DNA of 64,000 bases. Source: Microvirga sp. (GTDB lineage: Bacteria > Pseudomonadota > Alphaproteobacteria > Rhizobiales > Beijerinckiaceae). Of this stretch, positions 4,481 through 58,238 are shown one piece after another. The position numbers and the translations under genes were made by a program. The notes beneath the pieces are model-generated. The model saw only the letters and a program-made list of their open reading frames with translations. It was not told where the DNA came from and did not search any database. The stretch is taken from NCBI GenBank assembly GCA_031181145.1, contig JAPSLB010000018.1:1-64000 (forward strand). Reading direction: 5' to 3'. How positions within the stretch are numbered: position 1 is the first letter of the stretch; each line of letters begins with the position of its first letter.

Positions 4481-6079
4481 ATGAAACAGCAGCTATCTAT
4501 CCTTGCCGGCGCTTTCGCCGCCGTGCTTCTTGGAGGTCAAGTCTCGGCCGCCGAACTTCGCATCGGCACCGCCGCCGAACCGAGCGCGCTCGACCCGCAC
4601 TATCATAACCTCACGCCGAACAACACGGTCCGCCGTCACATCTTTGAATCTCTGGTCGATCAGGACGCGAAGCAGCGCCTGATCCCGGCTCTCGCGGAAT
4701 CCTGGCGGACGATCGACGACAAGACCTGGGAGTTCAAGCTCCGCAAGGGCGTGAAATTCCACGACGGCACGGAGTTCACGGCGCAGGACTTCGTCTACAC
4801 GGTCTGCCGCATTCCGAACGTTGCCAACAGCCCGTCCTCGTTCACGCTCTATACCAAGGGCATCGACTCCATCGAGGTGCCCGATCCCCACACGCTGATC
4901 ATCAGGACCGCCGCGCCCTACCCGCTGCTGCCCGTCGAACTGACCACGTTCGGAATCATCTCGGCGAAGGCCGCCGGCGGCGAGACGGTCACCTTCGACA
5001 AGGCCGGCTGCAAGGCCGATTCCTGGCCCTCGACCCAGGCCTTCAACGACGGCTCCCTCGCCATCGGCACCGGCCCGTTCAAGCTGGCCGCGTACCGCAA
5101 GGGTGAGCGGATCGTGCTTGATCGCAATCCCGACTACTGGGGAGAGAAGCCCGAATGGGACAAGGTGACATTCCGCCCGATCACCAGCGAAGGCCCGCGC
5201 GTCGCGGCGCTGCTCGCCGGTGACGTCGATCTGGTCGACGAACCGCCGCTGCAGGATCTCGAGCGGCTGCGCAAGGATCCCAAGATTTCGGTCGTCGAGA
5301 CCCTGTCGAACCGCATCATCTATCTCGCCCTCGACCAGGCCGAGAAGACGCCGACGATCAAAGGCACCGACGACAGGAACCCGCTGCGCGACATCCGCGT
5401 CCGTCAGGCGATGTCTATGGCGATCGACCGCGAGGCCATCGTCAAGCGCATCATGAACGACACCGCGGAACCCGCAGCCCAGCTCCTGGCGCCCGGATTG
5501 TTCGGCACCAACCCGGATCTGAAATTCTCCTACGATGCCAAGAGGGCGAAGGAGCTGCTCGCGGAAGCCGGATATCCCAACGGGTTCGAGCTCACTATCG
5601 GCACGCCGAACGACCGCTACATCAACGATGAGAAGATCGCTCAGGCGGTCGCCCAGATGTACAGCCGCATCGGCATCAAGACCCAGGTCGATGCCGCGAC
5701 GGTGAACGTCTTCTTCTCCCGCCGCAACAAGGGCGAGTTCAGCGTCTTCCTCGGGGGCTGGAGCGCCGCCACCGGCGAGGCTTCGTCGCCCCTGAAGTCG
5801 CTGGTCGCCACCCGCATCAAGGAAAAAGGCTTCGGGCCGACGAACTACACCGGCTACTCCAATCCGAAGCTCGACGACCTGCTCACGAAGGCGCTTGCCA
5901 CCGTCGACGACAAGGAGCGTGAGAAGCTCTTGGCGGAAGCCATGAAAACCGCGGTCGACGATGTCGCCCTTGTGCCGCTGCATTACGAGGTCACGTCGTG
6001 GGCCATGCGCAAGGGCCTGAGCTACGAGCCGCGCGCAGACCAGTACACCCTGGCTTACGCCGTTCGCTCGGCCAAGTAA
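4481..6079 (+). CDS. Dpp/Opp-type ABC transporter, periplasmic substrate-binding protein
   Basis: A 532-residue family-5 solute-binding protein. A Sec signal peptide covers residues 1-23 (basic start, hydrophobic core, cleavage likely after VSA). The mature protein opens with the family pattern RIGTAAEPSALDPHYHN and continues with the conserved LRKGVKFHDGTEFTAQDFVYT block near residue 90 and RQAMSMAIDREAIV near residue 310. Such proteins bind di- or oligopeptides, opines or similar cargo and hand it to the membrane permeases, encoded next. It is the first gene of a plus-strand operon ending in an M20 deacylase, which suggests an acylated amino acid or peptide as cargo; that is inference. A GC-rich stem-loop follows the stop codon and may favour higher expression of this gene than of the permeases. 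Confidence 0.92.
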   Translation: MKQQLSILAGAFAAVLLGGQVSAAELRIGTAAEPSALDPHYHNLTPNNTVRRHIFESLVDQDAKQRLIPALAESWRTIDDKTWEFKLRKGVKFHDGTEFTAQDFVYTVCRIPNVANSPSSFTLYTKGIDSIEVPDPHTLIIRTAAPYPLLPVELTTFGIISAKAAGGETVTFDKAGCKADSWPSTQAFNDGSLAIGTGPFKLAAYRKGERIVLDRNPDYWGEKPEWDKVTFRPITSEGPRVAALLAGDVDLVDEPPLQDLERLRKDPKISVVETLSNRIIYLALDQAEKTPTIKGTDDRNPLRDIRVRQAMSMAIDREAIVKRIMNDTAEPAAQLLAPGLFGTNPDLKFSYDAKRAKELLAEAGYPNGFELTIGTPNDRYINDEKIAQAVAQMYSRIGIKTQVDAATVNVFFSRRNKGEFSVFLGGWSAATGEASSPLKSLVATRIKEKGFGPTNYTGYSNPKLDDLLTKALATVDDKEREKLLAEAMKTAVDDVALVPLHYEVTSWAMRKGLSYEPRADQYTLAYAVRSAK

Positions 6080-6091
6080 TCGCCATCGGCC

Positions 6092-6111
6092 GGGGCGGCA
6101 TCTGCCGCCCC
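6092..6111 (+). terminator. Stem-loop between binding protein and permease genes
   Basis: GGGGCGGC (6092-6099) pairs perfectly with GCCGCCCC (6104-6111) around an ATCT loop. No U-tract follows. Hairpins at this position in ABC operons usually stabilise the upstream binding-protein message or reduce read-through rather than stop transcription fully; that role is inferred. Confidence 0.45.
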
Positions 6112-6144
6112 CGCTCCAATCCTGTCCGCCATGTGGAATTCGAG

Positions 6145-7122
6145 ATGCTGGTTTTCCTGATCCGGCGCATCGCCCAAAGCGCGATCGTGGTCGCCATCAT
6201 GTCCGTCCTGGTCTTCACCGGCATCTTCGCGATCGGCAACCCGATCGACGTGCTGATCAGCCCGGAGGCCGACGAGGCCGAGCGCGCCGCCGCCATTGCA
6301 CGCCTCGGGCTCGACCTGCCCATGCACGAGCAGTTCCTGGCCTTCGCCAGGAACGCACTCGCCGGCGACCTCGGCATCTCCTTCGTTCACGGGGTCCCGG
6401 CGGTGCAGCTCGTTCTCGAACGCTTCCCGGCGACACTGGAGCTGGCGCTGCTCGCCATGACCATCGCCGTGTTGACCGGTATCCCGCTCGGCGTCTGGGC
6501 TGGACTCAGGCCCGATTCCAAGGCTGGCAAGATCATCATGGCGGGTTCGATTCTCGGCTTCAGCCTCCCGACCTTCTGGGTCGGCATGTTGTTGATCATG
6601 GCCTTCGCGGTCTCCCTCGGCTGGCTGCCTGCGAGCGGCCGCGGCGAGACGGTGGAGGTGTTGGGGGTTCCCTTCAGCTTCCTGACGGCCAACGGTCTCA
6701 AGCATATGATCCTGCCGGCCCTGAACCTTGCCCTGTTCAAGGTGTCCTTGGTCATTCGCCTCGCTCGCGCCGGCACCCGCGAGGTCGCGCTGCAGGACTA
6801 CGTGCGCTTCGCCCGGGCCAAAGGTCTGTCGCCGGCCCGCATCGTCGGCGTCCATATCCTCAAGAACATCATGATCCCGGTCGTCACCGTGCTCGGCCTC
6901 GAATTCGGCTCCGTGATCGCCTTCTCGGTCGTGACCGAGACGGTCTTCGCCTGGCCTGGCATGGGCAAGCTCCTGATCGACAGCATCCTGCTGCTCGACC
7001 GGCCCGTCGTGGTGGCCTATCTGCTCGTCACGGTGCTCCTCTTCATCGTCATCAACCTCGTGGTCGACCTGCTCTACTCTCTGCTCGATCCACGCATCCG
7101 CCTGGGAGGCGCCAAGGCATGA
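6145..7122 (+). CDS. Dpp/Opp-type ABC transporter permease (DppB-like)
   Basis: A 325-residue inner-membrane permease of the DppB family with about six hydrophobic segments. The first follows directly on LVFLIRRIAQS at the N-terminus, the standard start of this family, which is why I choose the ATG at 6145 rather than upstream in-frame codons that overlap the previous gene. The cytoplasmic EAA-type loop that contacts the ATPases is ARAKGLSPARIVGVHILKN near residue 225. The last codons overlap the start of the next permease by four bases (ATGA), so the two halves of the channel are translationally coupled. Confidence 0.9.
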   Translation: MLVFLIRRIAQSAIVVAIMSVLVFTGIFAIGNPIDVLISPEADEAERAAAIARLGLDLPMHEQFLAFARNALAGDLGISFVHGVPAVQLVLERFPATLELALLAMTIAVLTGIPLGVWAGLRPDSKAGKIIMAGSILGFSLPTFWVGMLLIMAFAVSLGWLPASGRGETVEVLGVPFSFLTANGLKHMILPALNLALFKVSLVIRLARAGTREVALQDYVRFARAKGLSPARIVGVHILKNIMIPVVTVLGLEFGSVIAFSVVTETVFAWPGMGKLLIDSILLLDRPVVVAYLLVTVLLFIVINLVVDLLYSLLDPRIRLGGAKA

Positions 7123-8027
7123 CCGCTGCAAGCCCCGTCGCCGCCGCTCCCAGGGTCCAGACGCCGCTCAAGCGCTTTGTCGTCGAGTTCCTCGACAGCC
7201 GAGTGGCCGTGCTCGGCCTCGCCCTGCTGGTGCTGATCGTCTCCTCAGCCCTGTTCGCGCCCCTGATCGCCCCGCAGGATCCCTACGATCTCAGCAAGCT
7301 CGACATCATGAACGGGATGCTGCCTCCCGGCAGCGCCGACATGGACGGCAACGTCTTCTGGCTCGGCTCCGACGAGCAGGGTCGCGACCTGATGAGCGCG
7401 ATCCTCTACGGGCTGCGCACCAGCCTGCTGGTCGGCTTCTCGTCCACCGCCGTGGCACTCGCGATCGGACTCGTGGTGGGCATGATCGCGGCCTATGCAG
7501 GCGGCAGCCTCGATGCGGCGATCATGCGGCTGGTGGACATCCAGCTCTCTTTCCCGGCGATCCTCATCGCCCTGATCCTGCTGGCGGTGCTCGGCAAGGG
7601 TGTCGACAAGGTAATCATCGCGCTCACCGCCGTGCAATGGGCCTATTATGCCCGCACCGTGCGCAGCGCCGCTCTCGTCGAGCGGCGCAAGGAATACGTG
7701 GAGGCCGCCCAGTGCCTCGCTCTGCCGAAGCAGCGCATCGTGCTGCGCCACCTTCTGCCGAACTGCCTGCCGCCGCTGATCGTCGTCGCGACCGTGCAGG
7801 TCGCCCATGCGATCACTCTCGAAGCGACGCTCTCGTTTCTCGGCGTGGGCGTGCCGGTCACGGAGCCCTCGCTCGGCATGCTGATTGCCTCGGGCTTCTC
7901 CTACATGCTCAGCGGCGAGTTCTGGGTCAGCCTGTTCCCGGGCCTTGCCCTGCTGGTCACCATCGTCAGCATCAACCTCGTCGGGGACCAGATGCGTGAC
8001 GTCCTCAACCCGCGCCTGCAACATTGA
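7119..8027 (+). CDS. Dpp/Opp-type ABC transporter permease (DppC-like)
   Basis: A 302-residue permease of the DppC family, partner of the preceding permease. It has the family's cytoplasmic N-terminus, a first membrane segment around residues 30-50, a periplasmic loop containing FWLGSDEQGRDLMSAILYG (the conserved LGTDxxGRD block), and the EAA-type coupling loop AAQCLALPKQRIVLRHLLPN near residue 200. It starts inside the stop codon of the DppB-like gene and is followed after ten bases by the first ATPase gene, so all five transporter genes form one transcription unit. Confidence 0.9.
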   Translation: MTAASPVAAAPRVQTPLKRFVVEFLDSRVAVLGLALLVLIVSSALFAPLIAPQDPYDLSKLDIMNGMLPPGSADMDGNVFWLGSDEQGRDLMSAILYGLRTSLLVGFSSTAVALAIGLVVGMIAAYAGGSLDAAIMRLVDIQLSFPAILIALILLAVLGKGVDKVIIALTAVQWAYYARTVRSAALVERRKEYVEAAQCLALPKQRIVLRHLLPNCLPPLIVVATVQVAHAITLEATLSFLGVGVPVTEPSLGMLIASGFSYMLSGEFWVSLFPGLALLVTIVSINLVGDQMRDVLNPRLQH

Positions 8028-8037
8028 GGAGGCGACC

Positions 8038-9012
8038 GTGACACGACAGGAACCCGTGCTCGAGGTCGAGGATCTGCGGACCCACTTCTTCACCCGCGGC
8101 GGCGTCGCGAAGGCGGTGGACGGCGTGAGCTTCACGCTCCGTCGAGGCGAGATTCTTGGGCTCGTAGGAGAATCCGGCTCCGGCAAGTCGGTGACCGGCA
8201 TGTCGGTTCTGGGCCTCATCGACGCGCCCGGCCGCATCGTCGGCGGCGCGGTGCGCTATCGCGGAGAGGATCTGGTGACGGCAGGCGAGAAGCGCCTGCG
8301 CCAATTGCGCGGCCGCCGCATCGCCATGATCTTTCAAGACCCCATGATGACGCTGAATCCGGTGCTCAGCATCGAGACCCAGATGGTCGAGACTGTGCTC
8401 GCCCATGAAAAGGTCTCGCGCAAGGAAGCCCGCGAGCGTTCGCGCGAGGCCTTGGTCCGCGTCGGCATTCCGTCGCCCGACGAGCGGCTCGCCGCCTACC
8501 CGCACCAGTTCTCCGGCGGCATGCGCCAGCGCGTGGCCATCGCCATCGCGCTCCTGCATCGGCCCGACGTGATCATCGCCGACGAGCCCACCACTGCGCT
8601 CGATGTGACGATCCAGGCGCAGATCCTGTTCGAAATGCAGAAACTGTGCCGGGAGACCGGCACGGCACTCGTCTGGATCACGCACGATCTCGCGGTGGTG
8701 TCCGGCCTCGCCGACCGGATCGCCGTGATGTATGCCGGCCGCATCGTCGAGATCGGTACTGCGGTCGAGGTCATCGACGGCGCTCGTCATCCCTATACCC
8801 ACGGCCTCCTCGGCTCGGTGCCGAGCCGCAACAGGCGCGGCGAACCGCTGGCCCAGATCCCGGGCATGACCCCGTCCCTGCTCAACCTGCCGGAAGGTTG
8901 CGCCTTCCGGCCGCGCTGCCCGCGCGCCACCGATGCCTGCCTCGCCCTGCCGCCCCTGTCGGACGGAGGACATGGCTGGCGCTGCTTCAACCCGCAAGGG
9001 GCCGCCGCATGA
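8038..9012 (+). CDS. Dpp/Opp-type ABC transporter ATPase (DppD-like)
   Basis: A 324-residue ATP-binding subunit. Walker A is GESGSGKS at residues 44-51, the ABC signature FSGGMRQRVAIAIAL, Walker B VIIADEPTTALD, and a switch histidine in ITHDLAVV. The C-terminus holds the cysteine-containing oligopeptide/dipeptide extension (GCAFRPRCPRATDAC) typical of this subfamily. I choose the GTG at 8038, preceded by GAGGAGGC, because the family pattern begins directly after it and upstream codons run through the permease gene. It overlaps the second ATPase gene by four bases. Cytoplasmic face of the inner membrane. Confidence 0.9.
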   Translation: MTRQEPVLEVEDLRTHFFTRGGVAKAVDGVSFTLRRGEILGLVGESGSGKSVTGMSVLGLIDAPGRIVGGAVRYRGEDLVTAGEKRLRQLRGRRIAMIFQDPMMTLNPVLSIETQMVETVLAHEKVSRKEARERSREALVRVGIPSPDERLAAYPHQFSGGMRQRVAIAIALLHRPDVIIADEPTTALDVTIQAQILFEMQKLCRETGTALVWITHDLAVVSGLADRIAVMYAGRIVEIGTAVEVIDGARHPYTHGLLGSVPSRNRRGEPLAQIPGMTPSLLNLPEGCAFRPRCPRATDACLALPPLSDGGHGWRCFNPQGAAA

Positions 9013-10058
9013 CCGCAACCACCTCCCCTTTCGCTGCCGTGCCCTCGCCCGGGTCGGACAGCGCGACGCCCATGCTCGAACTCTCCCATCTGACCAAGCG
9101 CTTCACCACCAAGCTGGATTTCGCCGAGCGCCTGGCGAAGCGGCTCGGCGCCAAGGTGCAGGAATTCGACGTCCATGCGGTCGATGACGTGAGCCTGACC
9201 ATCGCGCCGGGCGAGGTCGTCGGGCTGGTGGGCGAATCCGGCTGCGGCAAGACCACCCTCGGCCGCATGGTGGCGGGCATCACGCCGCCGAGCTCCGGCG
9301 AACTCCTCTATCGCGGCAAGTCCATGGCGGCGCTGCCGCACGACGAGGCCAGGCAGGCGAAACTGAAGATCCAGATGGTTTTCCAGGACCCGATGGCTTC
9401 GCTCAACCCGCGGCTGCGGGTGTCCGAGATCATCGGTGAGGCGCCGCGCGTGCACGGTATCGTGTCCCGCAATGAGCAGACGGACTACGTCGCCTCGATC
9501 ATGCGCAAAGTCGGGCTCGATCCGGCCTATGCGGCGCGCTTCCCGCACCAGTTTTCCGGCGGCCAGCGCCAGCGCATCGGGATCGCGCGGGCGCTCGCGG
9601 TGCAGCCGGAATTTCTCGTCTGCGACGAATCCGTGGCAGCCCTGGACGTGTCGATCCAGGCGCAGATCATCAATCTCTTCATGGGGCTGCGCCGGGAGTT
9701 GGGGCTGACGTATCTTTTCATCAGCCATGATCTCGGGGTGGTCGAACACATCGCCGACCGCGCCGTCATCATGTACCTCGGGCGCGTCGTCGAAGTGGCC
9801 CCGAGCGCGGAGCTGTTCACCAAACCGAACCATCCCTACAGCCGCGCCCTCCTCGATGAGGCGCCCCGGGTCGATACCCGCAAGCGCACCTTTGCGCCGA
9901 TCAGGGGCGAGATTCCGTCGCCTCTCGATCCTCCTGCAGGCTGTGCCTTCCATCCGCGCTGCCCGCTCGCGCTTCCCCGCTGCAGGAGCGAGCGTCCGGC
10001 GCTGCGTGAGATCGCGCCCGGACGGCTGTCCGCCTGCCATCTGAACGATATGCAGTGA
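9009..10058 (+). CDS. Dpp/Opp-type ABC transporter ATPase (DppF-like)
   Basis: A 349-residue second ATPase subunit, starting at the ATG that overlaps the previous stop codon. Walker A is GESGCGKT (75-82), signature FSGGQRQRIGIARAL, switch histidine in ISHDLGVV, and the C-terminal cysteine motif GCAFHPRCPLALPRC. Two details differ from the common form. The segment between the first strand and Walker A contains an insert of roughly 20 residues (around 35-55). The Walker B region reads LVCDESVAALD where CDEPVSALD is usual; the catalytic glutamate is kept, so activity is expected. It completes the transporter opened by the binding protein at 4481. Confidence 0.88.
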   Translation: MTATTSPFAAVPSPGSDSATPMLELSHLTKRFTTKLDFAERLAKRLGAKVQEFDVHAVDDVSLTIAPGEVVGLVGESGCGKTTLGRMVAGITPPSSGELLYRGKSMAALPHDEARQAKLKIQMVFQDPMASLNPRLRVSEIIGEAPRVHGIVSRNEQTDYVASIMRKVGLDPAYAARFPHQFSGGQRQRIGIARALAVQPEFLVCDESVAALDVSIQAQIINLFMGLRRELGLTYLFISHDLGVVEHIADRAVIMYLGRVVEVAPSAELFTKPNHPYSRALLDEAPRVDTRKRTFAPIRGEIPSPLDPPAGCAFHPRCPLALPRCRSERPALREIAPGRLSACHLNDMQ

Positions 10059-14628: not shown

Positions 14629-16173
14629 CTAAACGGCCTCCGTCACGGAAGGCAGGGCTTCGCGGCCTACAGCTTCCACCAGCGCTCCCGAGCGCACGAG
14701 CGTCGCGGCCGCAACGATATCGGGGGCGATGTAGCGGTCCTCGTTCAAGGTCGGCACGATTTCCCGGAGGGCCGCACGCGCCGCCTCCAGGCGCGGGCTC
14801 GAGGTGAGCGGGGAATGGAAGTCGCAGCCTTGCGCCGCAGCCAGAAGCTCGATGCCGATGACATTCGCCGTGTTCTCGGCCATGGCCAGGAGCCGGCGCG
14901 CACCATGGGCCGCCATCGAAACATGATCTTCCTGGTTGGCCGATGTCGGGATGGAGTCGACACTTGCCGGAAATGCCCGTTGCTTGTTCTCGGACACGAG
15001 CGCCGCGGCCGTGACCTGCGGGATCATGAAGCCGGAATTCAGGCCGGGCTCCGGGGTCAGGAAAGCGGGCAGACCCGACAGGGTCGGATCAACCAGCATG
15101 GCCATGCGACGTTCGGAGAGCGAGCCGATCTCGCACAGAGCCATGGCGATCATGTCGGCGGCGAAGGCGACGGGCTCGGCGTGGAAGTTGCCGCCGGAGA
15201 CGACCTCGCCCGTTTCTGCGAAAACCAGCGGATTGTCGGAGACGCCGTTGGCCTCGATCGCAAGCGTCGCTCCTGCCTGACGAAGAAGGTCGAGACAGGC
15301 GCCCATCACCTGAGGCTGACAGCGCAGGCAGTAAGGATCCTGCACGCGGTCGTCATTGGTGAGGTGGGAAGCCCGGATCGCGCTTTCCGCCATGAGCTCG
15401 AGCAGGGAGGCGGCAACCTCGATCTGCCCGCGATGGCCGCGGACGACCTGGATCCGCGGATCGAAGGGCTTGTCCGAGCCCCGCGCGGCATCCGTGGCGA
15501 GGGCGCCCGTGACGAGTCCGGCCTGCAGAAGGCGCTCGGCGTGGAACAGCCCCGCCAAGGCCAGAGCTGTCGATGTCTGCGTCCCGTTGAGAAGGGCGAG
15601 GCCTTCCTTGGGCCCGAGTTCGAGAGGCGCCAAGCCCGCGCGTTCGAGCGCCTCGTCAGCCGGCGCCTGTTCCCCGTCGAGGAAGAACGCCCCGATGCCC
15701 ATCATGGCGGCGGTCATATGCGCGAGTGGGGCGAGGTCGCCCGAGGCGCCGACGGAGCCTTGCGCCGGGATCACAGGGACGAGATCGGCCTCGAGGCAGC
15801 GGATGAGATGTTCGACGGTCGAGCAGCGCACGCCTGAGGCACCCTGCGCCAGGCTGGCCAGCTTGAGGGCCATCATCAGGCGCACGACCGGAGGCGGGAG
15901 AGGCTCACCCACTCCTGCTGCGTGAGAGATCACGATGTTACGCTGAAGCATGACGAGATCGGCATCGCTGATGCGGACATTCGCCAGCTTCCCGAAACCG
16001 GTATTGATGCCGTAGACGCTCTCACCCTTGGCGACGATCGCATCGACGGCGGCGGCCCCTTGCGCCACCTTGGCATCCCATCCCTTCTGAAGCGTGAGTG
16101 CGGCACCGTGATAGATGTCGCGCCACTGCGCCAGAGTGGCGGCGCCGGGAATGAGCGTCACGGTATGGTTCAT
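14629..16173 (-). CDS. hutH: Histidine ammonia-lyase
   Basis: A 514-residue histidase, the first enzyme of histidine degradation, turning L-histidine into urocanate and ammonia. The catalytic electrophile MIO forms from the A-S-G triad at residues 143-145 inside [24 protein letters not shown] (54-63) holds the conserved active-site tyrosine. I set the start at the ATG at 16173, giving the standard N-terminus [10 protein letters not shown]; the frame is open further upstream but that part overlaps hutI and is not histidase-like. The ATG overlaps the hutI stop codon (ATGA), so hutI and hutH are translationally coupled. Confidence 0.96.
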
Positions 16174-48101: not shown

Positions 48102-49658
48102 TCAGGCGACGAGTTTCATGCCGGGCGTCCCGATCGTCCCGACCACCCGGGCCCTGACGCGTCGGGCGTCGCCGGGCAAGTAGGCGATCGGGATATCCTC
48201 CGCATCGACAAGACTGATCGTGCCGAGATCGGCTCCCGCCTCCACGGCGCGCTGAGTGGCGATCTCCTGCGCGGCGGCAAGCGCCGCATCGCGGCTCATG
48301 CCGGAGAACACCTGATCGACCTCGCCCGACACCTGAGCCATCGCGGCCCCGAGCGCGTTGGCGACGCCGGCATGCTCCACATGAACCACCTCGCTCACCC
48401 CGGCGAGCTGGTGTGGCACCAGGAAGGAGCCGCCGCCCACCACGATGATCGGCATGTCGCCTGCCGAGGTCTTCATGCGGTCGACGCCGTCCTCGATCAT
48501 CTGGTGAATGCCTTTCAGAAGGCTGTCGACCAGCGAGCCGTCGAGGTGCTTCACCCGGTCGCGGTCGCCGATCTCCACGATGCCCGCCGCCACGGCGATG
48601 TCAGTGGTCGTGAGCGTATCGCCGCCGAAGACGAGCGCCTTCTCGGTGATGCGGTAGCCCACGCTGCGCGGGCCGATCTTGCCGGTTTCCGGATCGATGA
48701 TCGTGCCGCCGCCGAGCGCCATCGGCAGAAGGTCGGGCATGCGGAACAGGGTTCTGACGCCGCCGACCTCGACGATGTTGTTGGCCTCGCGAGGGAAGCC
48801 GTTCACGAGGCAGCCGACATCGCTGGTGGTGCCGCCGACATCCACCACCATGCCGTCGGCCAGGCCCGACAGGAAGGCCGCGCCGCGCATGGAGTTGGTC
48901 GGACCGGACGCGAAGCTGTAGACCGGGTTCGCGGCCGCAACCTCGGCCAGCACCACGGTGCCGTCGTTCTGAGTCAGGTAGAACGGGGCGCGGATGCCCG
49001 CGCTCTCCAGGGCGTTGCGAAACGCTTCGACCGTCGATTGTCCCAGGCTCTGCAGCGATGCATTGAGGAGAGTGACGTTCTCCCGCTCCAGCAGACCGAT
49101 GCGGCCCAGGCGGTGGGACAGCGTGATCCTCGCCTCCGGCAGCACCGAAGAGACGATCTCCGCCGCCTCGAGCTCGCACTCCGCCGTCAGCGGAGAGAAG
49201 AGGGCCGTGATGCCGACGGCGGTGATGCCCGCGTCGCGGATCCGCATCGCCGCGTCGCGGATAGCGTCGCGATCCAGCGGAACCAGCGGACGCCCGTCGT
49301 ATTCATGGCCGCCGGCGACCATGAAGGACAGAGGATTGACGCAGGCGCGCAGATCCGCCGGCCAGTCCACCATGGGCGGCAGGGAGGCCGCCGCCGGCAT
49401 GGCGATGCGGATGGCCGCCACACGATCCAGCCGCGCCCGCTCCACCACCGCGTTGGTGAAGTGAGTCGTTCCGATCATGACGGCGTCGATATCCAGAGGC
49501 GCATCGCCTTGCGCCTTCACGAGACGCTGGATGCTGTTCACCACGCCGGACATCACGTCCGAGGTCGTGGGAGATTTGACAGCGGCCAGAACCGTCGATT
49601 TGTCGATCAGGACGGCATCCGTATTGGTGCCGCCGACGTCGATGCCGATGCGTTTCAT
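48102..49658 (-). CDS. Hydantoinase/oxoprolinase (HyuA)-like protein
   Basis: A 518-residue protein with the acetate/sugar kinase-type ATP-binding fold of the hydantoinase A/oxoprolinase family: IGIDVGGTNTDAVLID at residues 4-19, MVVDVGGTTSDVGCLVNG in the middle and IIVVGGGSFLVPHQLAG near the C-terminus. Such proteins couple ATP to opening of hydantoin, oxoproline or related amide rings, or to carboxylation. It is shorter than full-length HyuA (about 700 residues) because the C-terminal domain is absent, as is common for copies encoded beside DUF917 proteins. It overlaps that partner's stop codon by four bases, so the two are coupled. Substrate unknown. Confidence 0.85.
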   Translation of the reverse strand: MKRIGIDVGGTNTDAVLIDKSTVLAAVKSPTTSDVMSGVVNSIQRLVKAQGDAPLDIDAVMIGTTHFTNAVVERARLDRVAAIRIAMPAAASLPPMVDWPADLRACVNPLSFMVAGGHEYDGRPLVPLDRDAIRDAAMRIRDAGITAVGITALFSPLTAECELEAAEIVSSVLPEARITLSHRLGRIGLLERENVTLLNASLQSLGQSTVEAFRNALESAGIRAPFYLTQNDGTVVLAEVAAANPVYSFASGPTNSMRGAAFLSGLADGMVVDVGGTTSDVGCLVNGFPREANNIVEVGGVRTLFRMPDLLPMALGGGTIIDPETGKIGPRSVGYRITEKALVFGGDTLTTTDIAVAAGIVEIGDRDRVKHLDGSLVDSLLKGIHQMIEDGVDRMKTSAGDMPIIVVGGGSFLVPHQLAGVSEVVHVEHAGVANALGAAMAQVSGEVDQVFSGMSRDAALAAAQEIATQRAVEAGADLGTISLVDAEDIPIAYLPGDARRVRARVVGTIGTPGMKLVA

Positions 49659-50734
49659 GCTGCGAATACCGATTTGAAGTCGAGGTCGTAACCGAAGGCC
49701 CGCGGACCGACATGATCAAGGCCCTTGGGGGTGAGGAGGACGTCCGGCGCGGGCAGCGCAATGACCGTGACCCGCTGACCGTAGCGGAGCGTCTCCGTTC
49801 CGATGGCCTCGCCCGATACGGTGTCGAGAACGCAGATGAGATCAGGCGTCATCACGATGGGCTCGCCGTCGCGGAAGCCCACCGCCCACTCGTTCTGGAA
49901 CGCGAGCTCGAGCTTGCTGCCGCGATCCGTATCGAGGCCTTCGATGACGGCCGTGCCGCGCAGGAAGCCGCCCGTCGTCGTGCGGTCCATGTCGCTGACT
50001 TTGCCCTTGAACAGGATCTTTCCGCCTTCATGCTCCAGAACGGCCGCGATCGGATCGGAATGGGCAGCCCGTGCTTCGAGAACGGCCCGGCCGAGGCGTG
50101 TCGCCTTCGTGACCGTGTGCAGAACGCCCCATTCCTTCACTTCCTTGCCCGTGCGGGGCGCCTTGCAGGTCGCAGAGGTCGAGCCGACTTCGGTGCAGAC
50201 CTTGCGCGAAATGCGCTCCATCCATTTCCACGAAGCCGCGCGGGCGACCACGACCTCGTTGTCGCGGCAATCCACCAGGCTGAGCGGATACATCTGCAGA
50301 TCGCCGATGGCGAAGCTGGTCATCTGCGCTTCGGGGTAGGCGCGGCCCATGGCGTCCGCATCGACGACCGGATAATCGAGGATGGCTCCGGCCAGGAAGG
50401 GCGAGATCGCATTGCCGCCGCCGATCTCCACGCTCATGATGGCGCGGAATTTCTTGCCGAGGTAATCTTCCATCACCTGCACGGCGCGGGCGAGATGAGC
50501 CGGGTCGACGAGACGTTCCTGGCCCACCAGAGGCGCACCCATCTTGGAAACGACCGCGACATAATCGTCGTCGTCCAGAGCGGCCGGGTCCATCAGCTTG
50601 CAGGTCTTGCCCTCGGCGTAAAGCTGTTTCAGGTTCAGCTGGGCAAGATAGGGACTGCCGCCGCCGCCGGTCCCCAGGATCCAGGCTCCGATAGCCAAAG
50701 GATCGATTTCGTCAGCCCCGAATTCACGGATCAT
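49655..50734 (-). CDS. DUF917 family protein
   Basis: A 360-residue protein of the DUF917 family, recognised from the N-terminal LAIGAWILGTGGGGSPY, the SVEIGGGNAISPFLAGA and the VDADAMGRAYPEAQMT blocks. Biochemical function is not established; the family is regularly encoded next to hydantoinase/oxoprolinase-like proteins and is probably its partner subunit. The ATG at 50734, behind CCGGAGGGAGA, is clearly the start; the open frame 12 codons further up is unsupported. It is transcribed divergently from the AroM-LuxR fusion across about 260 bases. Confidence 0.85.
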   Translation of the reverse strand: MIREFGADEIDPLAIGAWILGTGGGGSPYLAQLNLKQLYAEGKTCKLMDPAALDDDDYVAVVSKMGAPLVGQERLVDPAHLARAVQVMEDYLGKKFRAIMSVEIGGGNAISPFLAGAILDYPVVDADAMGRAYPEAQMTSFAIGDLQMYPLSLVDCRDNEVVVARAASWKWMERISRKVCTEVGSTSATCKAPRTGKEVKEWGVLHTVTKATRLGRAVLEARAAHSDPIAAVLEHEGGKILFKGKVSDMDRTTTGGFLRGTAVIEGLDTDRGSKLELAFQNEWAVGFRDGEPIVMTPDLICVLDTVSGEAIGTETLRYGQRVTVIALPAPDVLLTPKGLDHVGPRAFGYDLDFKSVFAA

Positions 50735-50800
50735 TGATCTCCCTCCGGTGATATAGAAGACGGTATCCATCCGCCGGGCGGGCCGAAATAGGGGTGTGCA

Positions 50801-50814
50801 CCTAATCGATAAGG
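50801..50814. promoter_or_regulatory. Near-palindrome in the DUF917/AroM-LuxR intergenic region
   Basis: CCTAATCGATAAGG is symmetric except for one mismatched pair. It lies about 65 bases upstream of the DUF917 start codon and could be an operator for the regulator encoded on the other side. Short and unproven. Confidence 0.3.
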
Positions 50815-50993
50815 GGGCGCCCCGTGCCGGTGATCTCCTTCAGGAAAGGCGCATCGCTTTTCCAATCGGGATGGCCGGGACGGTCCCGTCCAAGAAAGAG
50901 GCATCGGCCCGAGCCCAAAAGCGCAAATCCTTCCTACGTCCGATGCTCCGACGGCGCTTGTTCCGCCGTACATTCTCGCTGTAGAAGTTCTCT

Positions 50994-51962
50994 ATGCAGA
51001 TCAGCACCGAAGGCAACGATATTCAGGGCCAGAAGAATGGCGGGCCGGCCTTGCTCAAAGTGGCGTTCGTCAGCGTCGGGCAGACCCCGCGCTCCGATCT
51101 CGTGCCCGACCTTCTGACTCAGCTCGATCTGCCCATCGCGGCGACGGAGTTCGGCGCTCTGGACAACCTGACCGACGAAGAGATCCTGGCGCTCGCGCCA
51201 GACCCCTCCGAGCAGGCCATCGTCACACGGCTCGCTGATGGAAGTGACATCGTTCTCTCCAAGCCCCGCATGGCCGAGCGCATGGCGCAGATCGTCTCGC
51301 GGTTCGTGCCTTCGGATTTCGACCTCGTGGTCATTCTCACCACAGGGCTTTTCAGGGAGTTCGAAAGCCGGTGCCCGACCGTGAATGCTCAGAGGGCGAT
51401 CGAGGCCGGCATCCTGTCCTTGGCCTCGCAGGGGACGGTGGTCGGTCTCATTCAGCCGCTCGCGCAGCAGGTGGACGAGATTGCCTTCCCGGCGCTGTCC
51501 GCCTACCGCGTCCTGAAGAGTCACGCATCGCCGGGTGACAAGGGCGAATTGGCGCAGGCGCTCGTAGACCTGGCGGAGAGCGAGATCATCGTTCTCAATT
51601 CCGTAAGCTTCACGGATGCGGACCGGCTGATGGTGACCCGCGCCAGCGGCAAGCCCGTGGTTCTCGCGCGCCGCCTGGTCGCAGGCGCGATGAGACTCCT
51701 CCTCGACGGGCGGCCGGAAATGCCGCGATCCTACGATGCCTCCCCCATGCTGGCGGAGCGCCTCGAGCGCCTGACGCCGAGGGAGCGGCAGGTTCTTTCC
51801 CTGGCGGCGGAGGGCCTGTCGAACAAAGCGATCGGACGCCAGCTCGGCATCAGTCCGAAGACCGTCGAGATCCACCGCTCCAAAGTCATGAGCAAGATGG
51901 AAGTGTCCTCGACGGGAGCCCTTATCCGGCTTATTGTTTCGGCAGAACACCCCGGTTTATGA
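50994..51962 (+). CDS. AroM-domain protein fused to a LuxR-type DNA-binding domain
   Basis: A 322-residue fusion. Residues about 20-237 match AroM: KVAFVSVGQTPRSDLVPDL, then ALDNLTDEEILALAPDPSE, and LARRLVAGAMRLLL at the end of the domain. Residues about 257-318 form a LuxR helix-turn-helix: LTPRERQVLSLAAEGLSNKAIGRQLGISPKTVEIHRSKVMSKM (split across the domain). Aligned with the stand-alone AroM protein next door, its two conserved cysteines are replaced by T116 (VVILTTGL) and S203 (VLNSVSF). I infer a non-catalytic ligand sensor controlling the divergent DUF917/hydantoinase genes and the following aroM-transporter genes. The ribosome site before the ATG is weak. Confidence 0.85.
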   Translation: MQISTEGNDIQGQKNGGPALLKVAFVSVGQTPRSDLVPDLLTQLDLPIAATEFGALDNLTDEEILALAPDPSEQAIVTRLADGSDIVLSKPRMAERMAQIVSRFVPSDFDLVVILTTGLFREFESRCPTVNAQRAIEAGILSLASQGTVVGLIQPLAQQVDEIAFPALSAYRVLKSHASPGDKGELAQALVDLAESEIIVLNSVSFTDADRLMVTRASGKPVVLARRLVAGAMRLLLDGRPEMPRSYDASPMLAERLERLTPRERQVLSLAAEGLSNKAIGRQLGISPKTVEIHRSKVMSKMEVSSTGALIRLIVSAEHPGL

Positions 51963-51985: not shown

Positions 51986-52068
51986 AATCGTTTCTACGGG
52001 CATTCCCCTATAGCCCGATCCAAATCCCAAATTTAGCCTGTTTCGATCGGTTGAGGGGGGATGAGGAC

Positions 52069-52731
52069 ATGACGAGACAGCTGCGGCTTGCATTCGTGAC
52101 GATCGGCGAGAGTCCGCGAGACGATATCGTCCCTGAAATGCTGGCGGATATCGGCGGGAATGTGGAAGCCGTCGAATTCGGCGCCATGGACGGTCTCACG
52201 GAGGAAGAGGTGGCGGCGCTCGCTCCGCTGCCGGGCGAAACATCGTTTGCCACGCGCCGGCGGAACGGCAGCGAGGTCGCCATTTCCAAGGAGCGCATCG
52301 AGATCCGCCTGGAAGAGCTTCTCCGGCGCATCGACAACGAAGGCTTCGACGCGGTCGTCCTGCTCTGCACGGGCACGCATGTCGCTCCGCTCCAGAAAAC
52401 CCTCATGATCGAGTCGCAGCGTATCGTCGATTCCATGGTCGAGGCGATGGCGGCCTCCGCGAAGCGCCTGGGTGTCCTGCTCCCCCTGGAGCGGCAGATC
52501 GAAGAATTTCCTAAGCGGCATGTCTTCAGCACCATGCCGAAGCTGGCCGCGGCCTCGCCCTATGCAGGCGACGACATCGCCGCGAAGGCGGCATCGCTCG
52601 CCGATTGCGACCTCGTCGTGATGCATTGCATGGGCTACTCGGATGCGATGCGAGCGGAGGTTCGCAGCGCGATCTCCGCCCCCGTCCTGCTGTCGCGCCG
52701 GATCGTTTCCGGCGCCATCCGCCAAATCCTC
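52069..52731 (+). CDS. AroM family protein
   Basis: A 221-residue AroM protein, related in fold to aspartate/glutamate racemases. Two cysteine motifs sit where the racemase catalytic cysteines would be: C100 in VVLLCTGTH and C187 in VVMHCMGYSDA. In E. coli aroM lies beside aroL and its function is unknown. Here there is no shikimate gene nearby; it follows the AroM-LuxR fusion and precedes a peptide-type transporter, and shares the same domain with the fusion throughout. Start at the ATG after GGGGGATGAGG. I infer an isomerase-like activity on the compound handled by this locus; its substrate cannot be read from sequence. Confidence 0.85.
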
Positions 52732-52768
52732 TGACGACCAAGCGACAAACCAAAGGGAACTGGAGAGA

Positions 52769-54361
52769 ATGATGAGGAACTGGATTTTCGGAATTGCCGC
52801 GGCGAGCCTCGTGGTCGGCATGACGCAAGCTGAACCGGCTTTCGCGTTCGAGCGCGTGGAGGGCGGCAAGGTCATCGTCTTCGGCGGGCGCCAGCAGATC
52901 CCCGTGCTCGATCCGCACGTGCGCTACGACTGGTCGACGCGCATGATGCAGCAGGCGGTCTACGACGCGCTCGTGAAGTACGAGGGCAATCCCGCCGAGA
53001 TCAAGCCGTGGCTGGCCGAGCGCTGGGAGACCAGCGAGGACGGCAAGACCTGGACGTTCCATCTCGTCGACGGCGCCAAGTTTCACAACGGGGACCCGGT
53101 CGATGCCGAAGCCATCCGCTATTCCTTCGAACGCGGCCTGAAGCTCAACAAGGGCGTGGCCTGGATGCTGAAGGACTTCCTCGATCCGGAAGGCATCGAG
53201 GTGGTCGACGCCCGCACCGTCCGCTTCAACCTGAAATCCCCCTACTCCGCCTTCCTGTCCTTCCTGCCCTGGTGGTATGTGGTGAACCCGAAGGAAGTGA
53301 AGGCCAACGAGGTCGACGGCGATTACGGCCAGAAGTGGCTGACGGACCATGCGGCCGGCTCCGGCCCCTTCAAGCTGAAGCGCTGGGAGCCGAACGTCCT
53401 CTACGAGGTCGAGGCCGTTAAGGACTACTGGAAGGGCTGGCCGCAGGGCGACGCGAACCGCCCGGCCGGCGTGATCTATCGCATCATCCGCGAGCCGGCG
53501 GCCCAGAAGGCAGCTCTCCTGCGCGGCGAGGCGGACATCGTCGAGGGCCTGACGCCCGACGATTACGTCCAGATCGCCAGGCAGCGCGGCGTGACCATCC
53601 AGGATCACCCGGGCATGACGACCTTCAGCATCAAGTTCAACAACCAGCAGGGCCCGACGGCGGACAAGAACCTTCGCAAGGCGATCGCCTATGCGGTCGA
53701 CTACGACGGCCTCGTGCAGATCTACAACGGCGCCGCGAAGCTCCAGACCAGCCCCTTCCCGAACGCCCTGCGCGGCCATGTCGACGTGCCGAACATTCCG
53801 CGCCGGGATCTCGCCAAGGCGAAGGAATTTCTCGCGAAGTCGCAGCATCCGGACGGCGGCCTGACCCTGGAATACTACCATGTCGCGGGCCTCGAGGAGG
53901 CGCGGCGCATCGGCCTTCTGCTTCTCGACAATCTGGCTCCCCTGAACATCAAGGTCGAGCTGCGTCCCGAGCAATGGCCGAACATGGTCGCCAAGGGCTC
54001 GAAGGTCGAGACTTCGCCGGCCATGACGTCGGTCTACGTGACGCCGATCTCGACCGATCCGGACGCGGTGGCCTACCAGTACCACCCGAACTCCTACGGC
54101 CAGTACTTCGCCATGTCGTTCTACCAGAATCCCGACGTGGCGGCGAAGATCGATACGGCCCGCCGGAGCAGCGACTGGAACGAGCGCGCCAAGCTCTACG
54201 AGGACATCCAGAAGCAGATCGTCGAGGATCAGCCGGAAGTGTTCGGGATGATGCAGAACCGCCGCTGGGCGCACCGGGACTATCTGAAGGGCTTCTCCTT
54301 CAGCCCCGTGCGGTTCACCGGCGAGGTCGATCTCTATCCTCTCTGGATCGACGCCAAGTGA
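52769..54361 (+). CDS. Dpp/Opp-type ABC transporter, periplasmic substrate-binding protein
   Basis: A 530-residue family-5 solute-binding protein. The signal peptide spans residues 1-26 (MMRNWIFGIAAAS core, cleavage after AFA). Mature blocks include IPVLDPHVRYDW, WTFHLVDGAKFHNGDPVDAEAIRYSFERG and LRKAIAYAVDYDGLVQIY. It is distinct from the binding protein of the first transporter at 4481. Start at the ATG after GGAGAGA, 38 bases behind aroM, so aroM and the transporter are probably one operon. Cargo unknown; the locus suggests a modified amino acid, peptide or hydantoin-like compound. Confidence 0.92.
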   Translation: MMRNWIFGIAAASLVVGMTQAEPAFAFERVEGGKVIVFGGRQQIPVLDPHVRYDWSTRMMQQAVYDALVKYEGNPAEIKPWLAERWETSEDGKTWTFHLVDGAKFHNGDPVDAEAIRYSFERGLKLNKGVAWMLKDFLDPEGIEVVDARTVRFNLKSPYSAFLSFLPWWYVVNPKEVKANEVDGDYGQKWLTDHAAGSGPFKLKRWEPNVLYEVEAVKDYWKGWPQGDANRPAGVIYRIIREPAAQKAALLRGEADIVEGLTPDDYVQIARQRGVTIQDHPGMTTFSIKFNNQQGPTADKNLRKAIAYAVDYDGLVQIYNGAAKLQTSPFPNALRGHVDVPNIPRRDLAKAKEFLAKSQHPDGGLTLEYYHVAGLEEARRIGLLLLDNLAPLNIKVELRPEQWPNMVAKGSKVETSPAMTSVYVTPISTDPDAVAYQYHPNSYGQYFAMSFYQNPDVAAKIDTARRSSDWNERAKLYEDIQKQIVEDQPEVFGMMQNRRWAHRDYLKGFSFSPVRFTGEVDLYPLWIDAK

Positions 54362-54409
54362 TGGATGCGGCCAACGTCTTGGCGCAGTCCGACTGCTCAC
54401 GCGGGACAT

Positions 54410-54429
54410 GTGGGGGCCTGAGCCCCCAC
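54410..54429 (+). terminator. Stem-loop between binding protein and permease
   Basis: GTGGGGGC (54410-54417) pairs perfectly with GCCCCCAC (54422-54429) around a CTGA tetraloop, 49 bases past the binding-protein stop codon. As in the other two transporters of the window, a hairpin follows the binding-protein gene; partial termination or message protection is inferred. Confidence 0.45.
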
Positions 54430-54469
54430 GACCCTCGACATATCGTTCTCGACCGAAGGGCATAGCGCC

Positions 54470-55477
54470 ATGCTGACGTTTACCTTCCGCAAGATCGCGG
54501 TGCTGGTGGGCACGATGCTCGGTCTTGCGGCCCTGACCTTCCTCATCACCAACGTCGCACCGGGCGATCCTGCCCGCCTCGTCGCGGGTCCCGACGCCAC
54601 CAACGACATGGTGGAAACGATCCGCCAGGAATACGGCCTGGACCGCCCGCTCTACGAGCAGTTCGCGATCTATATGGGCGATCTGCTCACAGGCGATCTC
54701 GGACGCTCGATCGTGTCCACCCGTCCGGTCGTCGACGAGCTCATGCGCTATGTGCCGGCGACCCTGGAACTGGTTCTCGTCGCCATGGTGCTCGGCATCC
54801 TGGTCGGCGTGCCCTTCGGCATGCTCTCCGCCGTCTACAAGGACAGGTTCCTGGATCAGGTGACCCGCATCTTCTCCATCTCCGGCGTGGCCCTGCCGGC
54901 GTTCTGGTTCGGCATTCTGCTGCAGCTTTTCTTCGCCGTGCGCCTGGAGTGGCTGCCCGTCTCCGGCCGGCTTCCGCTGACCGAGCTCCCGCCCGAGCCC
55001 ATCACCCATCTTCTCCTGGTGGACAGCCTGCTGCGGGGTCAGTTCGAGACGTTCTGGGCTGCCCTCTCCCACATCATTCTGCCTGCCATCGTCCTGTCGT
55101 TCCCCTGCCTGGCCTCGATCCTGCGCGTGAACCGGGCCGAGATGATCGAGGTCCTGCAGTCGGATCACATCGTGGCGGCCCGCGCCCATGGCATCAGCTC
55201 GGCCCGGATCGTCACGATCTATGCTCTCAAGAACGCCCTTCTGCCGACGCTCGCCATGATCGGCCTGCGCTTCGGCTGGATGCTGGGCTCCACGGTGCTG
55301 GTGGAAACCGTGTTCGATTGGCCCGGCATCGGGCTTTATGCCGTGTCCTCGGCGCTGGCTTCCGATTTCAAGCCCGTCGTCGGCGTCACTCTCGTCATCG
55401 GCTTCTTCTTCATGATCACAAACACGCTGGTCGACCTGGCCTATGCCTGGATCGATCCTCGACTGAGGAGGGCCTGA
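54470..55477 (+). CDS. Dpp/Opp-type ABC transporter permease (DppB-like)
   Basis: A 335-residue DppB-type permease with about six membrane segments. It begins TFRKIAVLVGTMLGLAALTFLITNVAPGDPAR, and the periplasmic GLDRPLYEQFAIYMGDLLTGDLGRS block follows; the coupling loop is ARAHGISSARIVTIYALKNALLP near residue 238. One base separates its stop codon from the next permease start. Confidence 0.9.
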   Translation: MLTFTFRKIAVLVGTMLGLAALTFLITNVAPGDPARLVAGPDATNDMVETIRQEYGLDRPLYEQFAIYMGDLLTGDLGRSIVSTRPVVDELMRYVPATLELVLVAMVLGILVGVPFGMLSAVYKDRFLDQVTRIFSISGVALPAFWFGILLQLFFAVRLEWLPVSGRLPLTELPPEPITHLLLVDSLLRGQFETFWAALSHIILPAIVLSFPCLASILRVNRAEMIEVLQSDHIVAARAHGISSARIVTIYALKNALLPTLAMIGLRFGWMLGSTVLVETVFDWPGIGLYAVSSALASDFKPVVGVTLVIGFFFMITNTLVDLAYAWIDPRLRRA

Positions 55478-55478
55478 A

Positions 55479-56392
55479 ATGTCGGCCGAACTCCAGAGCA
55501 CCGCCGTGCATGTCCCCGGCTTCAGGGAGCGCCATGCCAGCACCATCCGGCAATGGCGCCTCTATGCTCATCTGTTCACGAGCAGCTTCTCCTCGATGCT
55601 GGGTCTCGGCCTCGTGCTGCTGTTCCTCATCCTGGCGGTATTCGGGCCCATGCTGGCGCCCTATCCCGAGGATACGATGGGAGCGGTCAAGCTCGGACAG
55701 CGTCTGCTGCCTCCGAGCCTCGAGCATCCCTTCGGCACGGACGAGATGGGTGCGGACATTCTGTCCCGCGTGATCGTCGGTGCGCGCACCTCGCTGTGGA
55801 TCGGCCTGGTCATCACAGGTCTCGGCGCGGGGATCGGCGTGCCGCTCGGCATCATCGCAGGGTATAAGGGCGGGTTCATCCGGGCCGCGATCATGCGCGT
55901 CACCGACCTGTTCCTGGCGGTCCCGGGCCTGGCGCTCGCCCTGGCGATCGTCGCTGCCCTGGGGCCCGGCATCACCAATTGCGTGATCGCCCTCGCCATC
56001 GTCTGGTGGCCGGGATACGTGCGGCTGGTCGAAGCCAAGACGCTTTCCATCAAGGAAGAGCTTCACGTGGAGGCCGCCCGCGCGCTCGGCGCGAAGACGC
56101 CCTGGATCCTGCGCAAGCACATCCTGCCGAACTGCATGACGCCGATCGTCGTCAAGGCCAGCATGGACATGGGCATGGCCATTCTCTCCGCCGCGAGCCT
56201 GGGCTTCATCGGCCTCGGTGCCAAGCCGCCGCATCCGGAATGGGGCGCGATGATCTCGGTCGCCCGCACCTACATGCCTGACTGGTGGTGGTACTCCGCC
56301 TTCCCGGGTCTTGCCATCTTCCTGACCGTGCTCGGCTTCAATCTCCTCGGCGACGGCCTGCGCGACATCCTCGATCCCCGGAGCCGCGGCCG

Positions 56393-56396
<4 letters not shown>
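55479..56396 (+). CDS. Dpp/Opp-type ABC transporter permease (DppC-like)
   Basis: A 305-residue DppC-type permease. PFGTDEMGADILSRVIVGA is the conserved block after the first periplasmic loop, and EAARALGAKTPWILRKHILPN is the coupling loop. It forms the channel with the preceding permease. The last codons overlap the first ATPase gene by four bases (ATGA). Confidence 0.9.
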
Positions 56397-57376
<980 letters not shown>

Positions 57377-58238
57377 GGCTGCGGCGGGAGCGAAGCCGCT
57401 CCTTTCCGCCCGTCATCTCACCAAGGTCTTTCACACGGGCGGCCAGGAATTCCGCGCCGTCGACGACGTCTCCCTAAGCGTCGGCCACGGCAAGGTGCTT
57501 GGCATTGTCGGCGAGTCGGGCTCCGGCAAATCGACGGTCGCCCGCATGGTCATGCGGCTGATCGAGCCGACCTCGGGCACCGTCATGTTCGATGGCGACG
57601 ATCTGACCGCCAAGACAGGCGAAGCCCTCCGCCGGATGAGGCGGAACATGCAGATCGTCTTCCAGAACCCGCACTCGGCGCTCAACCCGCGCGACACGAT
57701 CGGCGACGCCATCGCCGAACCTTTTCTGGTTCAGACGAGAGTCCGGGGCTCGGAGCTCGACCGTAAGGTCGAGGAACTGCTCGATATCGTCAGCCTGCCG
57801 AAGACCTTCAAGTACCGCTATCCGCACGAACTCTCCGGAGGCCAGAAGCAGCGCGTCTGCATCGCCCGCGCCGTGGCGCTGGAGCCGCGCCTTCTGGTTC
57901 TCGACGAGCCCACCTCCGCGCTCGACGTTTCGGTTCAGGCTCAGATCATCATGTTCCTGCAGGATCTCAGGGCGCGTCTGAACCTGACCTATCTCTTCAT
58001 CTCGCACAATCTGGCCGTGGTTCGGCATCTCTGCGACGATGTCGTCGTCATGAACAAGGGCGCCGTCGTCGAGAGCGGGCCGACCGAGGCCGTGTTCAAG
58101 TCTCCTCGCAACGCCTATACACGGCAATTGATCGAGAGCGTTCCTCGCATTCCCCGCCCGGCCAGCTGATCCGCCGGTCCCTTGAACCATCTCCATTCAT
58201 GCCTATCTCGGGAGGGACCCCCGATCCGGGCCCCTCTG

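Follow-up and report, generated by a model that had tools for sequence, protein, structure and literature searches.

The Microvirga sp. contig analysed here encodes a protein of 322 amino acids in which a full AroM domain is joined in a single chain to a LuxR/FixJ-type helix-turn-helix (HTH), and this fusion belongs to a conserved alphaproteobacterial family. Judging from sequence comparisons, we consider it likely that the protein is a one-component activator whose non-catalytic racemase domain senses a hydantoin-like or cyclic-peptide-derived ligand. It probably switches on two adjoining gene groups for uptake and opening of hydantoin-like rings. The cluster comprises the following features (the window denotes the whole stretch of DNA that was analysed, 64,000 nucleotides; the basis of each assignment is given in brackets).

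48102..49658, minus strand: hydantoinase A / oxoprolinase-type protein, HydA (Pfam PF05378, PF01968)
49655..50770, minus strand: DUF917 / S-Me-THD-type protein, divergent from the fusion (Pfam PF06032, PF20906)
50760..50765, minus strand: predicted -10-like element TACCGT of the DUF917-HydA operon (hexamer at offset 21 from operator 1)
50787..50806, no strand: predicted operator 1, AATAGGGGTGTGCACCTAAT, between the DUF917 gene and the fusion, the weaker site (alignment, foreign-genera matrix)
50994..51962, plus strand: AroM-LuxR fusion protein, 322 aa, AroM at residues 23-234 and HTH at 259-313 (Pfam, 51 complete homologous fusions, structure model)
51993..52012, no strand: predicted operator 2, TCTACGGGCATTCCCCTATA, between the fusion and AroM (alignment, foreign-genera matrix)
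52034..52039, plus strand: predicted -10-like element TAGCCT of the AroM operon (hexamer at offset 21 from operator 2)
52069..52734, plus strand: stand-alone AroM with both cysteines, C100 and C187 (Pfam 201.8 bits, alignment, Foldseek 2eq5)
52769..58169, plus strand: peptide/nickel-type ABC transporter (Pfam, NCBIfam; order common to Microvirga and Rhizobium-type loci)
52769-54361, plus strand: binding protein of this transporter (Pfam, NCBIfam)
54470-55477 and 55479-56396, plus strand: its permeases (Pfam, NCBIfam)
56387-57376 and 57345-58169, plus strand: its ATPases (Pfam, NCBIfam)

A preliminary description of this DNA had claimed an uninterrupted frame with an AroM domain at residues of about 20-237 and a LuxR HTH at about 257-318, and all of this is borne out. 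The frame 50994-51962 (plus strand) is open throughout. AroM (PF07302) is matched at residues 23-234 with 144.4 bits (cut-off 23.8, E 4.6e-42) over profile positions 1-216 of 219, i.e. as a full domain, and the LuxR/FixJ-type GerE HTH (PF00196) at residues 259-313 with 73.3 bits (cut-off 23.5, E 1.2e-20). With an input domain (AroM) and a DNA-binding domain (GerE) in one chain the fusion has the layout of a one-component regulator. In BLASTP it is 34% identical to the adjacent stand-alone AroM over 219 columns (pair E 8e-45). The AlphaFold2 model, built on a 73-sequence alignment, reaches a pLDDT of 85.9 and a pTM of 0.72, with low-confidence stretches at residues 1-15, 242-248 (interdomain) and 319-322. 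Foldseek matches of its N-terminal part are the hypothetical Rhodococcus protein 4ix1, maleate isomerase, arylmalonate decarboxylase and aspartate racemase, those of the C-terminal part FixJ, NarL and other response regulators; the TM-scores of these matches are modest (about 0.4 to 0.6). By sequence the nearest solved chain to the HTH is FixJ (1x3u, E 3.9e-13). Two adjacent genes or a sequencing error could be ruled out since both Pfam domains lie in one frame in all 51 complete homologues. A response regulator and a quorum-sensing LuxR protein were rejected as well, as Pfam matches of the window protein and of the 73 aligned members include neither a receiver domain nor an autoinducer-binding domain.

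The occurrence of the family was followed in overlapping samples of 48 genomes of the genus, 397 of the family, 397 of the order, 385 of the class and 398 of the phylum, in one scan of 84,980 species genomes (43 loci) and in plasmids (6 records). In the genus sample a full-length relative occurs in the source genome and in 5 of the 47 others. Counting only domains that score 50 bits or more, the collected loci contain 154 different AroM domains, and 52 of these share an open reading frame with an HTH, including the rear piece of the split gene L128; this split gene and AroM-like frames below 50 bits were kept out of the 154-row count or of the tree. The preliminary description had suggested a search for co-occurring PF07302 and PF00196 over all bacterial proteins, with their genomic neighbours; the samples covered here gave 51 complete fusions, all matching AroM and GerE, with a divergent gene order that is fixed at most places. 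Among the 73 members scanned with Pfam, the 22 stand-alone proteins all match AroM, and GerE is found in 51. Named hosts besides Microvirga are Neorhizobium, Rhizobium, Allorhizobium, Pseudorhizobium, Methylobacterium, Bradyrhizobium, Shinella, Ketogulonicigenium and Acidisphaera, and the hosts are bacteria of soil or plant association. The 43 loci of the large scan are alphaproteobacterial where labelled, three of them carrying less precise labels (one "Rhodobacterales", two "Proteobacteria" MAGs). In the phylum sample (14 of 398 genomes with AroM) none of the 10 AroMs from outside Alphaproteobacteria is fused to an HTH. Public records already call such fusions "AroM family protein", so the sequences themselves, architecture apart, are already known.

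The tree was computed from 150 AroM domains with IQ-TREE in quick mode, without bootstrap and without the very long rows L146 and L143_alone, both of which the program had flagged as long. In it all 52 fusion rows, i.e. the 51 complete ones and L131, which is cut by a contig end, are found on one side of a branch with SH-aLRT 98. As the fusions form a single clade, many independent fusion events are unnecessary on this tree; in the first tree, where L146 and L143_alone were included (152 rows), two changes were needed, L146, with an end branch of 4.08, being placed inside the fusion group. L146 (1480-3150) itself is a very divergent AroM-like stretch in an over-long frame, lacking the cysteines at both columns and the HTH. 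Some incomplete or distant relatives were also seen. In the record of Mesorhizobium sediminum a frame break divides the fusion (L128, 9959-10896), and a nearby transporter ATPase likewise appears in two overlapping pieces, which means either decay or an assembly error. Near a contig end of another genome (L009, 559-798, G017) lies a piece 69% identical to fusion residues 222-301 with an internal stop, possibly a remnant. Divergent AroM-like gene pairs, facing each other 4 to 5 kb apart and scoring 38 to 55 bits, occur in four genomes of the order, G428, G448, G623 and G641 (L061-L064 with L072-L075); two checked genes of these pairs contain AroM only (Pfam).

The residues on which cysteine chemistry would depend have been replaced throughout the family. 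In the stand-alone AroM of the window, C100 and C187 each align with a cysteine of hydantoin racemase 2eq5 (E 0.0041), and in Foldseek the model of this AroM has the same racemase as its best match. The replacements noted in the preliminary description, C100 to T116 and C187 to S203 in the fusion, are exact by alignment and general: cysteine is present at neither column in any of the 51 complete fusions, and fusions keeping both cysteines, part of what that description had named as speaking against its view, do not occur among them. At the first column the fusions have S (42), T (7) or M (2), at the second S (50) or A (1). The collected stand-alone AroMs, among the matches listed in each search, have the second cysteine in 99 of 99 and the first in 92. 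These figures derive from 102 rows without HTH, of which 92 are C,C and seven S,C, the remaining three being L131 (the cut fusion), the front piece of L128 and L146 (the over-long frame). Since the first cysteine is not universal in stand-alone proteins (Ser in 7 of 99), loss of the second is the more telling. The seven S,C proteins (L156-L159 and L161-L163) come from one family outside Alphaproteobacteria and keep the second cysteine; the first cysteine may be dispensable for AroM function.

The rest of the domain has changed far less. Among the 22 aligned stand-alone proteins 20 columns are conserved in 20 or more, and 16 of these columns are kept in at least 40 of the 51 fusions; the other four are both cysteines (0 and 0 of 51), I28 (6 of 51, mostly V) and P180 (11 of 51). 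As read from these alignments, the AroM part of the fusion is a mostly kept scaffold from which the residues for cysteine chemistry are gone. This retention of fold and of most conserved columns, together with a first-column serine that most fusions share with seven stand-alone proteins, would suit a trigger enzyme whose AroM part is still catalytic via Ser/Thr or other residues and whose regulatory role is secondary. We give this idea hardly any probability, as the second cysteine, invariant in stand-alone AroMs, is absent from every complete fusion, and as a two-cysteine AroM adjoins the window fusion and an AroM gene lies close by at most other places. In the favoured reading of a sensor the N-terminal domain would derive from an AroM protein with the Asp/Glu/hydantoin racemase fold, and because both cysteines are lost and the scaffold is mostly kept it could hold a ligand without racemising it.

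The genes around the fusion point to the class of ligand. In the window HydA and DUF917 are encoded on the minus strand and the fusion, AroM and the ABC transporter on the plus strand, and according to Pfam the fusion is the sole HTH gene within the conserved cluster. Neighbours were counted at 58 fusion places (59 rows, with L128 counted once), many of them from close relatives, with distances taken between tblastn match edges. A HydA or HyuA gene is present within 9 kb of the fusion at all 58 places, and the same distance takes in an Opp-type or OPT transporter at 53 of them and AroM at 51. At 52 places a divergent DUF917 gene lies no more than 300 bp away. Places without a close divergent DUF917 gene are L077, L124, L125 and L132, all four with HyuA and HyuB, and also the first copy of L174 (DUF917 at 7.6 kb) and L175 (at 2.0 kb). 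Shinella sp. HZN7 has an OPT/YSL transporter and a gene of the aspartate/glutamate racemase family downstream of the fusion. A Pfam scan of 10 flanking proteins of four distant loci (L172, L077, L132, L125) revealed no additional enzyme common to all. For the DUF917 protein of the window the thiohydantoin desulfurase reaction is not proposed, as its scores with the two NCBIfam models of that enzyme are far too low (117 and 101 bits against cut-offs of 450 and 440).

Three further observations concern gene arrangement. In L174 (G1115) two different AroM-LuxR fusions (7390-8364 and 14825-15724) flank one AroM-ABC transporter operon and are perhaps two sensors for a single pathway. In Methylobacterium terricola (L121) the 4 kb between fusion and AroM resemble, by eye, a chemoreceptor and a sugar-type binding protein. 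The window also contains, at 4532-10040, a second, distant Opp-type transporter gene set that is 25 to 45% identical to the cluster transporter.

Similar gene content has been reported from another direction. In a published survey the surroundings of cyclodipeptide-oxidase-like genes are enriched in genes for AroM, DUF917, hydantoin racemase and peptide ABC or OPT transporters, and hydantoin-like substrates were proposed for those clusters (PMC11055893, available part of the text). Among the window-cluster proteins scanned with Pfam no cyclodipeptide oxidase gene was identified. From gene content and fold, the ligand of the fusion would most likely be a substrate or intermediate of its own cluster, i.e. 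a hydantoin-like or cyclic-dipeptide-derived ring, which the transporter would import, AroM isomerise, and the DUF917/HydA proteins open.

That the fusion is a regulator, as the preliminary description proposed, gains support from the fixed divergent gene order, from a palindrome in both intergenic regions and from a partial covariation of recognition helix and palindrome. In the alignment the palindrome TATAGGGG-N4-CCCCTATA is common to both intergenic regions of the cluster. A 20-bp matrix was refined on both regions of 34 loci and then remade per group (28 Rhizobium-type and 6 Microvirga loci), and scans were made on the plus strand only, which is sufficient for a near-palindrome. With these group matrices, whose training sites had been chosen with the pooled matrix and included one false site (L106, AroM side, from a wrongly cut region), each group could be scanned with the matrix of the other. 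With the Rhizobium-type matrix the fusion-AroM site comes top in all 6 Microvirga loci (20.1 to 26.6 bits), operator 2 being the top place in the whole 64 kb window with 26.6 bits. The DUF917-fusion site is second in four and third in two of these six loci (with an unrelated place above it in two) and scores only 3.0 to 6.2 bits in five of them; operator 1 is the second-best place in the 64 kb window with only 5.5 bits. Conversely, the Microvirga matrix puts the DUF917-fusion site first in 28 of 28 Rhizobium-type loci and the other site second in 27. In an unprompted dyad search of the window, operator 2 is the top dyad of its region and operator 1 is not. A motif-free pairwise test gave a clear outcome, with none of 60 shuffles as good, for the window, L094, L168 and one region pair each in L171 and L176, and also for L079, there for a G+C-rich pair other than the motif; most remaining region pairs of the tested loci were unclear.

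The palindromes could in principle belong to another regulator encoded elsewhere, with the fusion controlling different genes. Binding of the fusion to them is a prediction only, and each genus genome has 2 to 31 LuxR-type HTH matches, most of them to the HTH part only. We judge this very unlikely, as the strict pattern TAVGGGNNNNCMCCTA matches six whole genomes of the genus at the fusion cluster only, as the cluster encodes no HTH protein besides the fusion and as palindrome type tracks its helix type in most loci. The strict pattern occurs twice each in G000, G047, G002, G039 and G008 and once in G004, whose AroM-side site does not fit it; having been written from the operator sites it matches these by construction, and its absence elsewhere is the result. 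The reversed pattern has 0 to 3 matches per genome.

The position of the palindromes argues for activation. A hexamer, TA[GC][GC][CTG]T, composed after the alignment of sites had been seen, starts 21-22 nt past the palindrome on the AroM side in 34 of 34 loci and on the DUF917 side, at offsets within 20-23, in 28 of 34, and in shuffles in at most 3 of 34. Because of this fixed spacing to a -10-like hexamer the palindrome centre would be situated about 43 bp upstream of the deduced starts of both the DUF917-HydA and the AroM-ABC transporter operons, i.e. over the -35 position, which would be the placement of an activator. The FixJ/NarL-type HTH, presumably as a dimer, is predicted to read TATAGGGG-N4-CCCCTATA there. 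The same palindromes and the same class of ligand would serve a fusion that keeps the two operons repressed in the absence of bound ligand, or that represses its own gene as well. This alternative we regard as unlikely: operator 1 is indeed in the shared region before the fusion gene, where no hexamer occurs at activator distance on the fusion-gene side (0 of 34 loci), so that a different effect of the fusion on its own gene is possible, but the equal palindrome-to--10 spacing on both target sides, over -35, is what an activator requires. Directly on the fusion side of operator 1 many Rhizobium-type loci (L094-L120) have a stretch like CTTGCCTTGATTTTGGGCAT that may be the promoter of the fusion gene itself; no such stretch is evident at window positions 50807-50850.

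The recognition helix starts with SPK in 37 of 55 members, with SHR in 11 and with SPR in five, with two others. SPK loci carry the GGGG/CCCC form of the palindrome: these are the 34 matrix loci, Ketogulonicigenium (none of 100 shuffles as good in either region) and L078, L121 and L122 (0 or 1 of 100 shuffles as good for the AroM-side site, 1 to 4 of 100 upstream). Of the 11 SHR loci, 8 (L126, L127, L169, L080, L132, L172, L173, L077) have in one or both regions a site like TATACGTG-N4-CACGTATA that none of 100 shuffles equals. In L127 the upstream site is closer to the GGGG form, and no palindrome was found in the upstream regions of L126, L132 and L077. The remaining SHR loci have weak sites (first copy of L174, L177) or no clear palindrome (L175). 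SPR members are mixed, with the GGGG form in L171 and L085, a CGTG-like form in L129, none in L170 and a weak site at the second copy of L174; the palindrome at L176 is also weak. In most loci the form of the palindrome matches the type of helix, and the covariation read from these sequences is partial. Helix types and operator types both follow clades, so the covariation does not represent many independent events. It speaks for a reading of the palindrome by the fusion's own HTH but is no proof of it. We lean slightly towards the wider proposal that the fusions are a new family of activators in which a sensor arose once by double cysteine loss, responds to a ligand of the adjoining pathway and reads TATAGGGG half-sites with SPK helices and TATACGTG half-sites with SHR helices.

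If this is true, a racemase fold became a gene regulator, with one origin and many descendants. A probable binding-only AroM stands beside an apparently catalytic one, with predicted operators at hand, so a reporter or gel-shift screen could identify the ligand, rather than guesses at a reaction. This gives an experimental handle on DUF917/HydA clusters of unknown substrate, and AroM family proteins were described as still experimentally uncharacterised in 2024 (PMC11055893, available part).

Among the matches listed in the literature searched, which covered few subscription journals, no description of an AroM-HTH fusion was recognised. In the clusters of PMC11055893 no AroM regulator is described and the word LuxR is absent, as far as the available text goes. 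An enzyme fold turned into the effector domain of a one-component regulator is a known kind, and it is the combination of AroM with LuxR that was not found in print. Compared with the AroM family (PF07302) the fusion contains the full domain, but both cysteines are replaced and an HTH is added. The kind of HTH (PF00196) is shared with FixJ and NarL; unlike these and unlike quorum-sensing LuxR proteins, the fusion has AroM in place of a receiver or autoinducer-binding domain. The closest parallel is BzdR, in which an HTH is joined to a shikimate-kinase-like effector domain with benzoyl-CoA as experimentally established ligand (PMC3602430, available part). As in BzdR, an enzyme fold that has lost its activity would provide the effector part of a one-component regulator governing a degradation pathway; in contrast with the fusion, BzdR has a shikimate kinase fold and carries an XRE-type HTH at its N-terminus.
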